49,223 nt of DNA from a virus: positions 1 to 49,223 of IMG/VR virus record IMGVR_UViG_3300008116_000261, one strand, 5' to 3'. Within the stretch, counting starts at the first letter, position 1, and each line of letters opens with the position of its first letter. This document shows positions 3,413 to 29,905 of the stretch, piece by piece. The notes beneath the pieces were generated by a model. It was not told where the DNA came from, searched no databases, and was given only the letters and a program-made list of their open reading frames with translations. The position numbers were made by a program, and so were the translations under genes.

Positions 3413-3763
3413 TTATATGTTATTTATTTGATCTAACGTAAATCCTAACTCTTGTGCTAAGGTCTCTAGTTCTGGGTTCTCTTCTCCTGAATATTCACTG
3501 TCAATTGTTATTAGATTTGCAATCTCTTTTACTTTTTGTAAATACTCCTCTCCTTTCATTGCAGCAATTTTACTAGCAATTTCTGGTTGCTCTAATTCCG
3601 CTGCTTCGATTTGACTTTCAGATCCTTGATCAATTGTGTAATCGTTAGATACGTAATCTTGCACTAATCTTAGTAGGTCGTCTCCCTGTTCTTCATTTAG
3701 TAATCTTGAATTAGTAGTTAATTTATTTTCTACTAAAAATTTTTTTAAATTAAAATTTTCCAT
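3413..3763 (-). CDS. Leader-bearing small head protein
   Basis: This 116-residue acidic protein begins with the leader FNLKKFLVENKLTTNSRLL (residues 4-22), shared with proteins at 24487, 24283 and 10232. The leader contains LVE at 11-13, a match to the (L/I)xE consensus cut by T4 gp21 protease. The remainder is helical and low in hydrophobics. The ATG overlaps the stop of the protease gene as TAATG, suggesting coupled translation. It may be an internal or core protein that is processed during head maturation; no named family was recognised. Confidence 0.7.
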   Translation of the reverse strand: MENFNLKKFLVENKLTTNSRLLNEEQGDDLLRLVQDYVSNDYTIDQGSESQIEAAELEQPEIASKIAAMKGEEYLQKVKEIANLITIDSEYSGEENPELETLAQELGFTLDQINNI

Positions 3764-4344
3764 TATGCTCTTAGTATATTGTTAATAATACAATCTAATC
3801 TATCGTATTTTCCTACTACTTGTTTTCCTTCATTCAATGAAATTGGATTCATGAATGCTCCTTGTGTAGATGGATTAGAAACGAAATCCCAGCATACTAA
3901 TTCGAAGTCTGGTTGAACCATTAAAGTTCCTTCGTTTGTTTGAGTTACTGATCCTGTTCCTCTTGAAGAGATTCCTATTGTATGTCCTCCTCTTAATATC
4001 TCTTTTACGATATTTCCTGAAGGTGTGTTTAGTAATTCTACTTTACCCATTAAATCATCTCCTTGCCACCATAGTTCTTTTACGACATGTGATGCATTTT
4101 TTAAAGATACAATTGCTGATTCTGGATGATCTAATTCTCCGTAAGCATTTCCAACTTTAACAAAATTCTCTATATAGTTTTGAACTTCTTGTTCAAGAAT
4201 TTCTCTTTTATAGATTCTTCCGTTTTGGTTTTTAGCTCCTGCTCTCTGCATAATACCTGTTACTTCAAAAACACCTGGTTTGGTTTTTGATTCAGTAAGA
4301 AGTCCTTTGAAAGGAGTTACGTTTATTAATAGTGGATTGTTCAT
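3763..4344 (-). CDS. 21: Prohead maturation protease, gp21-like serine protease
   Basis: The 193-residue protein carries the signature of the T4 gp21 / herpesvirus-type assemblin fold: NGRIYKREIL at 41-50, GELDHPESAIVSLKN at 69-83 with His73, GHTIGISSRGTGS at 120-132 with the nucleophile Ser at 126/127, and VSNPSTQGAF at 155-164. In T4 this enzyme sits in the prohead core and cleaves gp23, gp22 and internal proteins after (L/I)xE. It overlaps the flanking genes by single bases (TAATG). The length is close to T4 gp21. Its likely substrates here are discussed in the findings. Confidence 0.95.
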   Translation of the reverse strand: MNNPLLINVTPFKGLLTESKTKPGVFEVTGIMQRAGAKNQNGRIYKREILEQEVQNYIENFVKVGNAYGELDHPESAIVSLKNASHVVKELWWQGDDLMGKVELLNTPSGNIVKEILRGGHTIGISSRGTGSVTQTNEGTLMVQPDFELVCWDFVSNPSTQGAFMNPISLNEGKQVVGKYDRLDCIINNILRA

Positions 4345-24317: not shown

Positions 24318-24462
24318 GGAAAGTACCTAGTATGTTTGCTACCTTATTAACTATAGCAGTATCGTTAGGTGTCAGGGCTAACCTTTTTTCAGCAATTATC
24401 TTAGCATTACTAGTTAGTCTATTCTCTACTAAAAATTTTTTTAAATCAAATGTATTTTCCAT
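24283..24462 (-). CDS. Leader-bearing 59-residue ORF, probable 5' part of the HEXXH gene
   Basis: An ATG at 24462 opens NTFDLKKFLVENRLTSNAKI, the shared leader. The frame ends 35 nt inside the next one at a TAA (24283-24285). The first 42 nt differ at only two positions from the start of the gene at 24487-25122, indicating recent duplication or exchange. After the leader it encodes TPNDTAIVNKVANILGTFL. It is most simply read as the N-terminus of the downstream HEXXH protein. Confidence 0.6.
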   Translation of the reverse strand: MENTFDLKKFLVENRLTSNAKIIAEKRLALTPNDTAIVNKVANILGTFLESGQARRITR

Positions 24463-24486: not shown

Positions 24487-25122
24487 CTATACTGGTTTTA
24501 ATTGCCCTTTTACTTTTGCTGCTATCTGCACTATTTCTACAGCTTTTACCCCTCCTAGAGCACCTTCAATACCCTTTAGTAATGTTGATCCTGGACCTAG
24601 TACGGTTCCTACGGCATTTCCTATTGCCATAGCTAGTATAGCTGCGTATATATACTTAGCTAGTACTAGTAATTTTTGCTCGTCTATTTTACCGTCTCCG
24701 GTTATCCAAAGTTTTTTAAGAAAGTTAGTTTTTTTAACTACCCATATAATAGTCTTTATATACAAATGTTCCCACTTATGTGTAAAATGCACTATTTTCT
24801 TAACAAAGGCAGGATCTTCAGGATTATCTTTACTTCTAAATAGTTTTGAAATTGTTCCTATTGCTTTTGCTATCCACTCTATTATTTTTGGAGCAGCTAA
24901 AAGTCCACTTCCTATTAATGCAACAACACTTTCGTTAAGTTCTTTTGGCTGTTCTTCTTCTGTGATTTCATCTAATGAATCTCCACCACTACTTAGTGCT
25001 GATAGTCCTGCTTTCATAGCAGCATCTAGTTCTGAATCTTCAGTATCAACTTCTAGTAACCTAGAGTTATTAGTTAATTTATTCTCTACTAAGAATTTTT
25101 TTAAATCAAATGTGTTTTCCAT
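24487..25122 (-). CDS. Leader-bearing protein with hydrophobic segments
   Basis: The 211-residue protein begins NTFDLKKFLVENKLTNNSRL, with LVE as a possible maturation site. Then comes an acidic stretch (about 25-64) and hydrophobic helices near 66-90 (VVALIGSGLLAAPKIIEWIA), 120-135 and 155-180 (YIYAAILAMAIGNAVGTVLG), joined by basic segments. A prohead leader on a membrane-type protein suggests a packaged protein that could act on the host membrane during entry, which is inference. It overlaps the kinase-like gene by 1 nt. Confidence 0.65.
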   Translation of the reverse strand: MENTFDLKKFLVENKLTNNSRLLEVDTEDSELDAAMKAGLSALSSGGDSLDEITEEEQPKELNESVVALIGSGLLAAPKIIEWIAKAIGTISKLFRSKDNPEDPAFVKKIVHFTHKWEHLYIKTIIWVVKKTNFLKKLWITGDGKIDEQKLLVLAKYIYAAILAMAIGNAVGTVLGPGSTLLKGIEGALGGVKAVEIVQIAAKVKGQLKPV

Positions 25123-25565
25123 TATACGTCTATTACTTTTATATTACCATAATACCTATCTTGCATTATGTTATCCATCTTAATTAAACCTCCCGGCCCT
25201 TCTAAGTCTGGATATATTCCTAACATTTCTGCTTCTTCTATTATATCATCAATTGGAACATCTTTTTCAGACCCTGTGAAAGGTTCTAGATTATCCATTG
25301 TGATAATTCCTAGTTTTGGATTTCTAACCTCTACGTCATATATGTATACGAAGTATTTAGTCTTTTGTCCTTTTATTTGTTGTGCATCTTCTAATTCTTC
25401 TGAATCAGTAGTTACTTTTTTTACTCTATCTCCTACTAAAAATACTGCTCCGTAATCTCCTTCTCCTAAATACTCTCCTCCTTGATCAACGATATCGTTA
25501 ACAAGTTCTTGGTATTCTTGAGAGGGTGTAATTACCTCCTTTAGTATGTTATAAAGGCTAATCAC
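25122..25565 (-). CDS. Compact protein-kinase-like protein, catalytic Asp not visible
   Basis: The 147-residue ORF starts with GTG (MISLYNILKEV...). YLGEGDYGAVF at 32-42 looks like a glycine-rich loop, VKK at 48-50 supplies the candidate lysine, and GIITMDNLEPF resembles a hinge. KMDNIMQDRYYGNIKVIDV at 129-147 resembles the catalytic-loop Asn plus the DFG-type metal site, and the protein ends there. The usual catalytic-loop Asp (HxDxxxxN) is not evident, so it may be a pseudokinase or a degenerate fold. It lies in a run of small accessory genes. Confidence 0.55.
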   Translation of the reverse strand: MISLYNILKEVITPSQEYQELVNDIVDQGGEYLGEGDYGAVFLVGDRVKKVTTDSEELEDAQQIKGQKTKYFVYIYDVEVRNPKLGIITMDNLEPFTGSEKDVPIDDIIEEAEMLGIYPDLEGPGGLIKMDNIMQDRYYGNIKVIDV

Positions 25566-26454: not shown

Positions 26455-27012
26455 TTACCAATAACCGCTAAAGTTTCTACTTCCTCCTAAAGATTTCCAA
26501 TATCTTCCGATATTGCAAGCCCAGTATCCTGGTTTTGTTTTATCTTTTTTAGTAGCACATTGATGACGGGCTGCAAAAGAAGCTCTTGCTCCTGGCTCGT
26601 CGATCTTAACATTCAATCCTGTTGTACCTCCAAAAGATACTTTTACTACATTTCCTTTTTTATTCTTAGTATAAACGTAGAATTTTTTAGAACCGCCTCT
26701 TTTTGGTTTGTTTAAAGGAACATCTTTACCTCTGTATTCTGCTTCATCAAGTTCTTCGTCGACCATTGGAAGATCTAAAGGAACTTTCTGTCCTTCATAC
26801 ATTCCATACTCTCCAATATCTGTTAATTCTAGCAGTAGAATATCTTGTTCACTTAATACAATTTTACCGTCTCTTAGGGCTTGTCTTGCTTCAGCAAACA
26901 ATTGTATAAACGAGTCAGAGGAGTACCTGTAGACACATTCAGATAGTGTTAGCTTATTGTCTAAATGGTACTGTAGGTTTGGTAATCCAACTATTTCCTG
27001 TAATCTTATCAT
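26455..27012 (-). CDS. Unknown protein with basic Cys-containing C-terminal phage domain
   Basis: The 185-residue protein has a helical N-terminal half (MIRLQEIVGLPN...), an acidic linker at about 78-94 and a basic C-terminal domain at 107-185. This domain contains KKFYVYTKNKKGNVVKVSFG, SFAARHQC and KPGYWACNIGRYW. It is common on phage proteins by my recollection and may bind metal through its two Cys and one His. It overlaps the upstream gene by 4 nt. Function unknown. Confidence 0.65.
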   Translation of the reverse strand: MIRLQEIVGLPNLQYHLDNKLTLSECVYRYSSDSFIQLFAEARQALRDGKIVLSEQDILLLELTDIGEYGMYEGQKVPLDLPMVDEELDEAEYRGKDVPLNKPKRGGSKKFYVYTKNKKGNVVKVSFGGTTGLNVKIDEPGARASFAARHQCATKKDKTKPGYWACNIGRYWKSLGGSRNFSGYW

Positions 27013-27446
27013 AAGAAATCTTTTCTAAAATATCTTCCTTCTATATTATCATTTATATAGTTGGAATCTGGTTCTATTACTCCTTTTATAAATAGGAATT
27101 TATTTTCATAATATGTATGAAGCTTTTTATTTGGAGTAAAGATAAGAATTTCTCTTGAGAATTCCGACTGTTTACCTTCTTTTATTAAGCCTTTTATTTC
27201 TGAGTGAGAACCGTAATAGGTTTTCCAATCAGATTCTTTTCTAACTATTTTAGATTTACTAGCTCTTTTATCTGTTATTAAAGCCAGTTCTTTTTTACCT
27301 AAAGCTTTTTTTGTAACAGAAATAAGTTGTTTCTTTCCTAAGTATTTTCTACCGGTTGGTAGATGTGTTACTTCATAGATAAACCCGAAGTTGTCTCCGG
27401 GCATATCTGCTAATTCCTTAATTTCTTTTTCTTTATATAACCACAT
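27009..27446 (-). CDS. GIY-YIG-type putative nuclease (SegE-like)
   Basis: The 145-residue protein has NFGFIYEVTHLPTGRKYLGKK at about 19-39, the variant of the GIY...YIG motif seen in SegE-type phage proteins. It then has DWKTYYGSHSEIK near 73-85 and a late Glu in YYENKFLF. SegE-like enzymes of T4 are free-standing homing endonucleases. Many relatives in other phages are of unknown activity. No intron or inserted target is visible nearby. It directly follows the fibre gene. Confidence 0.7.
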   Translation of the reverse strand: MWLYKEKEIKELADMPGDNFGFIYEVTHLPTGRKYLGKKQLISVTKKALGKKELALITDKRASKSKIVRKESDWKTYYGSHSEIKGLIKEGKQSEFSREILIFTPNKKLHTYYENKFLFIKGVIEPDSNYINDNIEGRYFRKDFL

Positions 27447-27460
27447 TTTTTACTGTTTTA

Positions 27461-28396
27461 TTAGAATAATGCATTCCAAATTGTTCCGTCATAGTAATAA
27501 GGCTTACTTGATCCTGGTGCTCCTTGTGCTACTATCATACCTTCTACTGCCGGTGATGGAAAAGATCCTGTTGGTGTTAGTTGCAGTATATTATTGATCA
27601 TCAATGAACCTGTAATCTGTACTTGAGAACCTGATGCAAATATTAAATTTCTTCTTGAAGCATTTGAAGTTCCGTTTCCTACTATAAAAGCAGATTGAGC
27701 TGATGATGAGATATTAAACTGCCCTATTACTGACTGAAATGATCCTGATGCTACTGTTTGATTACCTGCTGCATGTGAATATGATCCAGATGTAATAGTG
27801 TAATACCCTTCAGCATGTGAATAGTCTCCTATTGCTTTTGCATAGAAACCTTCAGCATGAGACCCTACTCCTCTGGTAAAACTATTTTGTCCTTCTGCGT
27901 GAGAATTAGCTGCATAAGTTATTGTAATGTATCCTTCTGCATGTGAAGCATCCCCTATTGCATATGTTTGATTTCCTTCAGCATGTGAACCTGCTCCTTG
28001 AGAATATGTACCACTACCTTCTGCATGTGAACTTTCTCCTTCTGCATGTGTTGAAGCTCCTTCAGCATGTGAATATAGTCCTGGTGAGTACACTTGATTT
28101 CCTTCTGCATGAGAATAGTTTCCTTGTGCATAAGTACTGTACCCTTCAGCATGTGAACTATTTCCGTATGATATTGAATTTTCTCCTTCTGCATGTGAGT
28201 AAGATCCAGATGAGATTGTATTATACCCTTCAGCATGTGAATAGTCTGCAGATGCTGTAGTAAAGTATCCTTCTGTATGTGCTCCAACTCCGTATGCTAA
28301 TGTTCTCTCTCCTTCAGCATGTGAGAATGTACCGTATGCTTCTGTCGCTCTACCTTCACTATGAGCAGAATTTCCTGATGCTAGTGTTCCAAATCC
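27461..28396 (-). pseudogene. Downstream part of SHAEG-repeat tail fibre, cut off by an in-frame TAA
   Basis: This region continues in the same frame as the gene at 28397-29905, after TAA 28397-28399. The frame has no other stop and no ATG near its beginning. It encodes about 16 further 14-residue SHAEG units, then a cap (FQSVIGQFNISSSAQSAFI), a GSQVQITGSL stretch and a C-terminal SKPYYYDGTIWNALF. The cap duplicates that of the upstream half. Either it is silent, or it is read by stop readthrough, or the stop is a point mutation or error of GAA to TAA in the repeat motif. Confidence 0.75.
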
Positions 28397-28430
28397 TTAA
28401 GCATGAGAATATAATCCTGTTACTGTATTT
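27770..28430 (-). repeat. Degenerate ~42-48-bp tandem coding repeats, block B
   Basis: The plus strand repeats CCTTCTGCATGTGA-like cores about every 42-48 bp, encoding SHAEG units after the TAA. Coding repeats, not CRISPR: no conserved spacers and continuous reading frame. Confidence 0.8.
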
Positions 28431-29905
28431 TGTCTTCCTTCTCCATGTCCTCCGGTCGGCCCTGCAGGTACTATATTTTCAAACCCTTGTGTTAAAGATC
28501 CTGTTATCTGCACATCCCCATTTATAATACCACTCCATGTTGTTGCATAAGAAGCTGTAGTAGCATTTGTTGCTGTTGCAAGTGTAAAAGAAGCTGTACC
28601 AAGTAAAGAACCTGTAAATCCTTGAGTAGCAATAACTGAACCTGTTACTTGGAATGTACTTCCTGATGCAAATACTAAATTACTTCTAGATCCATTTGCT
28701 GTTCCATTTCCTATTATGAAGGCTGATTGAGCTGATGAAGAAATATTAAACCTTCCTATTACTGATTGATATAGTCCTGATGCTACTGTAGAGTATCCTG
28801 CTGCATGTGAAAAATTTCCTGATGCTACTGTGGCAAATCCTTCAGCATGTGAAGCTAATCCAGATGCTACTGCATCGTTTCCTTCAGCGTGAGAATATAT
28901 TCCAGATGCTACTGTATTGTTTCCTTCAGCGTGAGACCAGTCTCCTGATGCTGTTGTGTAGTATCCTTCTGCGTGTGAGAAAGTACCTAATGATACTGTT
29001 TGATCTCCTTCTGCATGTGAATAGACTCCAATAGCTTGAGTACCTTGGCCTTCAGCATGTGTATAATCTCCTATGGCTTGAGTAATATTTCCTTCAGCAT
29101 GTGAGTAGCTCCCTATTGCTTGAGTGTTATCTCCTTCAGCATGAGAATAAGATCCAGAGGATATTGTAGAATGCCCTTCAGCATGTGAGTAATTTCCTGT
29201 TGCTGTATTAAAATATCCTTCTGCATGAGATGCTAGTCCTAATGCTGTCGTACCATTTCCTTCAGCATGAGAATAAGACCCTGATGCTGTAGTACTGGTA
29301 CCTTCAGCATGTGAGCTTTGACCTGATGCAGTTGTACTATCTCCTTCAGAGTGAGCAAAATTAGCAGATGCTACTGTACTAGTACCTTCGGCATGTGATC
29401 CTGTTGCTTGTGCACCTGTATTATCTCCTTCAGCATGTGAGTATAAGCCTGATGCTATAGTATAATTTCCTTCAGCGTGAGCATAAACACCAGTAGTTGT
29501 AGTTTGTGTATTTTTACCTTCTGCATGTGAACCTGTTGCAAGTGCTGAAACAGAATACCCTTCGGCGTGTGAGAAACCTCCTTGTGCTAATGTATTATAC
29601 CCCTCAGCATGTGAGTATATTCCTGATGTATAACTACCGGTACCTTGTGCTAATGATCCAGTTATTTCAACATTACTATTTCTTGAAATTCCACCACTAC
29701 CTAGATTTGTCCAGTTTGAAGTTGAAGTAATTGAAATAGACATTGATGCAGGTTCCGGCACCCCTGTTATACCTGTACTTCCTGTTGTAAAGAAAGTAAT
29801 AGTACTTCCTGATAAAGAAGCAGAGTAGAAGTACGATGATAGGTTAGTATCTAACTGTTCGTATGAAAGTGCTGATCCTGTTACCGATCTTAATGTAATT
29901 GCCAT
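28397..29905 (-). CDS. Tail fibre with YadA-head-like SHAEG repeats (first half)
   Basis: The 502-residue product starts MAITLRSVTGSALSYEQLDT, a common fibre N-terminus that likely docks to the baseplate or an adaptor. About 20 units of roughly 14 residues with consensus (Y)SHAEG follow from residue 98. They match the left-handed trimeric beta-roll of YadA/Hep-Hag adhesin heads. A cap, YQSVIGRFNISSSAQSAFII, then a GFTGSLLGTASF linker follow. It ends with YSHA and a TAA where every other unit has GAA. A trimeric receptor-binding fibre is the likely role. Confidence 0.8.
   Translation of the reverse strand: MAITLRSVTGSALSYEQLDTNLSSYFYSASLSGSTITFFTTGSTGITGVPEPASMSISITSTSNWTNLGSGGISRNSNVEITGSLAQGTGSYTSGIYSHAEGYNTLAQGGFSHAEGYSVSALATGSHAEGKNTQTTTTGVYAHAEGNYTIASGLYSHAEGDNTGAQATGSHAEGTSTVASANFAHSEGDSTTASGQSSHAEGTSTTASGSYSHAEGNGTTALGLASHAEGYFNTATGNYSHAEGHSTISSGSYSHAEGDNTQAIGSYSHAEGNITQAIGDYTHAEGQGTQAIGVYSHAEGDQTVSLGTFSHAEGYYTTASGDWSHAEGNNTVASGIYSHAEGNDAVASGLASHAEGFATVASGNFSHAAGYSTVASGLYQSVIGRFNISSSAQSAFIIGNGTANGSRSNLVFASGSTFQVTGSVIATQGFTGSLLGTASFTLATATNATTASYATTWSGIINGDVQITGSLTQGFENIVPAGPTGGHGEGRQNTVTGLYSHA
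28795..29618 (-). repeat. Degenerate ~42-48-bp tandem coding repeats, block A
   Basis: The same CCTTCAGCATGTGA-type core as block B, about 20 units encoding the first SHAEG array. The similarity between blocks A and B offers a substrate for recombination that would change fibre length. Confidence 0.8.

Follow-up and report, generated by a model that had tools for sequence, protein, structure and literature searches.

The window analysed here, the whole 49,223-nucleotide stretch of a viral record (IMG/VR IMGVR_UViG_3300008116_000261), is syntenic with Flavobacterium phage vB_FspM_immuto_2-6A (Immutovirus, NC_055915). The genes at 27009, 26455, 22506, 20743, 31982, 26196, and 18018 are collinear with their counterparts in immuto and 97, 95, 94, 92, 88, 81, and 81% identical to them, respectively; the genes on the baseplate side are more diverged (29–62% identity). 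By core gene similarity and synteny, the window thus belongs to an Immutovirus-like phage. At the fibre locus, flanked by genes mostly 80–97% identical in the two phages, immuto carries the four genes gp104–gp101, of which gp102 is annotated as hypothetical and the other three as fibre or spike, whereas the window has, between the same neighbours, a single fibre gene, which comprises two SHAEG modules and is interrupted by a TAA. At its N terminus this fibre resembles gp104, and in its repeats, cap, and tip it is similar to the C-terminal part of gp101; by comparison with L213:7371-14735, this arrangement suggests a fusion or a loss inside the locus. The next gene on the minus strand (27009–27446), syntenic with immuto gp100 (97% identical), encodes a SegE-type GIY-YIG protein. 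In immuto and PHROG 447 the corresponding gene goes by the name NAD synthetase, a label that looks wrong given the SegE-type GIY-YIG endonuclease domain recognized by Pfam. Elsewhere in the window, similar short DNA segments lie at 3699–3767, 24420–24462, and 25055–25123, that is, at the starts of the ORFs 3413–3763 and 24487–25122 and near 24440, all of them similar to a single site in L120 (MENTFDLKKFLVENKLT-like start); the segment shared by the two ORFs is perhaps a common N-terminal leader.

Translation of the fibre frame (minus strand, 29905–27461) yields 502 codons, a TAA, another 311 codons, and a terminal TAA. The internal TAA (codon 503, minus strand, 28399–28397) is the sole interruption of the 814-codon frame, as the original prediction had described it, coordinates included. 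It sits in the context CAT GCT TAA GGA, where the usual repeat reads CAT GCT GAA GGA (the plus strand at this site reads CCTTAAGCATG), and all aligned homologues have GAA where the window has GCT TAA GGA; that a single G-to-T change had replaced the glutamate codon of a SHAEG unit is thereby borne out. The presently translated ORF (28397–29905, minus strand) encodes 502 residues and the stretch behind the stop (27464–28396, minus strand) is open. The latter contains no ATG start, its first in-frame GTG lies at 28093, and translation confirmed that the same repeats and a duplicated cap continue in it, again as predicted. No second lesion was found behind the internal stop, and no other gene of the window shows the same split pattern, the remaining same-frame neighbours being ordinary gene junctions. 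That the stop falls exactly inside a repeat motif had been singled out as well; the location is correct, but it carries no significance, because the frame contains 35 repeat units and 35 of the 431 single-base routes to a stop (∼8%), or 35 of the 117 G-to-T routes, strike a SHAEG glutamate.

The full frame (27461–29905, minus strand) describes a two-module tail fibre in the order anchor, SHAEG roll, cap, linker, second roll, second cap, and tip. The N-terminal anchor region (codons 1–93, MAITLR...; 29627–29905, minus strand) is common to Immutovirus gp104-type proteins. It is followed by the first β-roll (about codons 83–385; 28751–29659, minus strand), by cap 1 (QSVIGRFNISSSAQSAFIIGNGT...ASGS; 28661–28766, minus strand), which is a near-copy of cap 2, and by the linker and two turns of the second roll, at which point the stop ends the present ORF. 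The remainder holds the rest of the second roll, cap 2, and the C-terminal tip (SFPSPAVEGMIVAQGAPGSSKPYYYDGTIWNALF, ending ...YYYDGTIWNALF; 27464–27568, minus strand), and a similar tip ends the relatives and Immutovirus gp101. The N-terminal part matches the YadA_head family of Pfam (PF05658; E 4e-13, 49.8 bits vs a cut-off of 25), whereas the part behind the stop alone scores 21.9 bits, below the cut-off; the profile match and the 14-residue periodicity identify the protein as a YadA-head-like repeat tail fibre. Matches of phmmer were to the BpaC adhesin head (7o23), which the first roll resembles, and to a Hep_Hag structure. With these adhesins the fibre shares SHAEG-type 14-residue repeats, expected to form a β-roll, but it combines them with a phage anchor, cap, and tip, where the adhesins have an autotransporter stalk and membrane anchor. 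A monomer model of the read-through protein contains two confident β-rolls (residues ∼83–385, with pLDDT mostly 70–97 in the first, and ∼476–728), whereas anchor, caps, and tip are without confident prediction; in this model, the stop falls within the opening turns of roll 2. A fold search of the PDB with the model gave no significant match, and a search of a viral structure library returned YadA-like proteins that superposed poorly. By analogy with the general organization of tail fibres, the N terminus would be the anchor and the C terminus the tip that contacts the receptor.

Comparison with sister genomes, proposed beforehand as a check, found all six two-module relatives uninterrupted and with glutamate at codon 503. 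Because this two-module architecture is conserved without a stop in the six relatives, the 311-codon open tail with its repeats, second cap, and tip is, judged by its sequence, not a product of chance. In the nearest relative, L001, the 41 residues around codon 503 are otherwise identical to the window; when the viral collection was scanned with this peptide as a pattern, only this contig matched, although such scans may leave out near-identical records. Between the window and L001, dN/dS was 0.16 behind the stop (67.5 synonymous and 42.5 nonsynonymous changes over 311 codons) and 0.35 before it, the latter value being raised by the fast-evolving first roll. When the changes behind the stop were polarized with the other relatives, 33 synonymous and 18 nonsynonymous ones fell on the window branch and 30 and 21, respectively, on that of L001, which means that no excess of amino acid changes marks the window branch. 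Neutrality over the full branch would have produced ∼12 extra nonsense changes, none of which is present, and a simple mixture calculation rejects the case in which constraint was lifted over more than about 15% of the branch (P = 0.024 at 15%, 0.065 at 10%). The remainder of the gene was thus under purifying selection until very recently. As neither excess changes nor a second lesion are found, the stop is either recent or not acting as one: it would be very recent, or an error, or read through, three cases that the sequence alone cannot separate.

We judge the likely explanation to be a recent nonsense mutation, a single G-to-T change that struck the main fibre gene of this locus in an Immutovirus-like phage. 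The original prediction had listed a recent mutation shortening the fibre among its readings, and both the glutamate in the six relatives and the lack of relaxed selection behind the stop support it; relative to the intact relatives, the mutation is a disrupting one, as expected of a loss-of-function allele. The same lack of relaxation and the otherwise intact frame are also what would be seen if the stop did not exist, that is, if the population had glutamate and the consensus base were wrong through a sequencing or assembly error. The gene is, moreover, a repetitive one, of the kind in which contigs often break (8 of 29 distinct fibres of the family run off the end of their contig). Against such an error, TAA occurs in no other repeat unit of the window, and hence shuffling of repeats cannot create the stop. 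Base errors that make stops are also rare, as eight other genes contained no nonsense codon in about 112,000 codons of comparable contigs, and a TAA at the same repeat position recurs in another phage, where two assemblies (L121 and L124) contain it. We therefore regard an error as unlikely, although not negligible. Full-length and truncated alleles might also coexist in a mixed population from which the assembler kept the stop allele. This would be a sub-case of the nonsense allele rather than its competitor; the lack of relaxed selection behind the stop fits it, as does the variability of tail-fibre regions in marine phage populations (PMC3909814), and its chances appear somewhat short of even.

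How the truncated product ends bears on what such an allele would do. In 20 of 21 distinct complete fibres of the family, the last SHAEG is followed by 95 or more residues of cap and tip, and these 20 include natural one-module fibres of 383–525 residues, which retain both. Only L086 departs from this, and it too is a nonsense allele (TAA at 'NTLA*YDG'), whose cap is frameshifted. The 502-residue product of the window ends in '...GLYSHA' without the second cap and the tip, and no intact relative looks like that, which argues for loss of function over an evolved short fibre.

The constrained open frame behind the TAA could likewise be accounted for by a programmed leaky stop, by which codon 503 would terminate most fibres but let a minority reach full length. 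In an unrelated phage (L121/L124), the first SHAEG indeed reads CATGCT-TAA-GG, and the frame then stays open for 235 codons. But the stop is present in none of the six two-module relatives and is thus not conserved together with the downstream frame, and no suppressor tRNA is encoded in the window. The short product would, in addition, lack the tip that natural short fibres keep. Nor are the 108 bases downstream of the stop more structured than shuffled sequences (z = 0.40), and a stimulatory RNA element in this segment was accordingly discarded. TAA is usually the least leaky of the stop codons. The earlier suggestion of readthrough giving long and short fibres therefore did not hold up, and we consider it very improbable. 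More doubtful by a shade is the broader conjecture that a leaky TAA early in the SHAEG β-roll sets the ratio of short to long fibres, arose more than once (in the window and in L121/L124), and produces particles of mixed binding. A changed genetic code had been called unlikely from the outset, and the window agrees: 37 of its 47 genes end in TAA, 8 in TAG, and 2 in TGA, no tRNA genes are present, and in-frame stops that fail to end genes do not recur in several genes. Recoding was dismissed on these grounds. Least probable of all, and hardly to be expected, is a split gene whose second half is translated on its own, with the GTG at 28093 or a non-ATG codon as its start. An AGAAGGA does lie a few bases upstream of this GTG, but AAGGA simply spells the glutamate-glycine codons present in each repeat; initiation at 28093 would omit 101 constrained codons and leave the protein without an anchor, and internal starts are unlikely because the genes of the window are generally devoid of Shine-Dalgarno motifs.

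Stops and other lesions occur in SHAEG fibres beyond the window. A search for the pattern HA-stop-G with HAEG one repeat further on gave five viral stretches on four contigs. Among public phages, the same stop as TAA was found only in L121/L124, two contigs of one phage that differ by 1 base in 4086, with the TAA in the first SHAEG; L122, L123, and L125 have TAG in its place. The TAA site of L121 and L124 (L121:306 and L124:439) lies in an unrelated phage and adjoins a tail-sheath-like gene, and other genes there also end with TAA. L122/L125 and L123 (TAG), as well as L031 (TGA), appear to be stop-recoded phages with SHAEG fibres. They resemble the window in having in-frame stops inside the same repeats; however, they have several such codons per frame, whereas in the window there is just one, a TAA, and TAA is also the codon with which most of its genes terminate. 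Bacterial and archaeal matches (L205–L212) were set aside as chance hits in unrelated frames. Further lesions came from loci that had not been chosen for stops. L086 has its in-frame TAA early in the repeats (L086:7427), in addition to the frameshifted cap, and the related contig L084 stops just short of this position. In L012 (6671–6730), L174 (4972–4998), and L193 (1328–1362), SHAEG repeats are joined out of frame, with differing junctions ahead of the same last unit and cap in L012 and L174; these joins are either real deletions or misassembled repeats. By comparison, the homologues of the eight other window genes, 410 distinct segments in all, contained a single frameshift and not one stop. 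The excess of lesions in fibres over neighbouring genes (P = 0.03 with L086, L012, L174, and L193 counted; 0.29 for nonsense alone) is suggestive, but the enrichment is weak, and misassembly of repeats could inflate the frameshift count.

Loss of a tail fibre through a small mutation has precedents. The side tail fibre gene stf is inactivated by a frameshift in laboratory lambda (lambda PaPa), and under agar-matrix selection it was mutated in 19 of 21 lambda isolates, 15 of them by frameshifts (PMC2762979). In marine phage genomes, too, the regions that encode tail fibres count among the most labile, one such fibre having a C-terminal YadA domain (PMC3909814). As in lambda, a tail-fibre gene would here be disabled by a small mutation that leaves the remaining sequence intact, the differences being that the lesion is a nonsense codon instead of a frameshift, and that the phage is uncultured. 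The window is best read as showing an allele that lost its function recently within the population sampled, much as stf did in lambda. Provided that the base is correct, as seems likely, and that the stop is not read through, ribosomes would halt at codon 503, and the product would retain the baseplate anchor, the first β-roll and its cap, and about two turns of the second roll, but not the remainder of that roll, the second cap, or the tip. Most likely, the resulting fibre could not bind via its tip or would fail to fold as a trimer. The allele would then be of the loss-of-function or host-range kind, presumably frequent in the population and with an effect on adsorption.

The stop, confirmed in the sequence, is probably a genuine and recent nonsense allele, and it adds one more case to fibre loss, a familiar type of phage variation; it reveals no new mechanism. 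If real, it captures a tail fibre being lost in nature, in an uncultured relative of a Flavobacterium phage, and, together with the other broken SHAEG fibres, suggests that this fibre is frequently gained and lost in aquatic phage populations.
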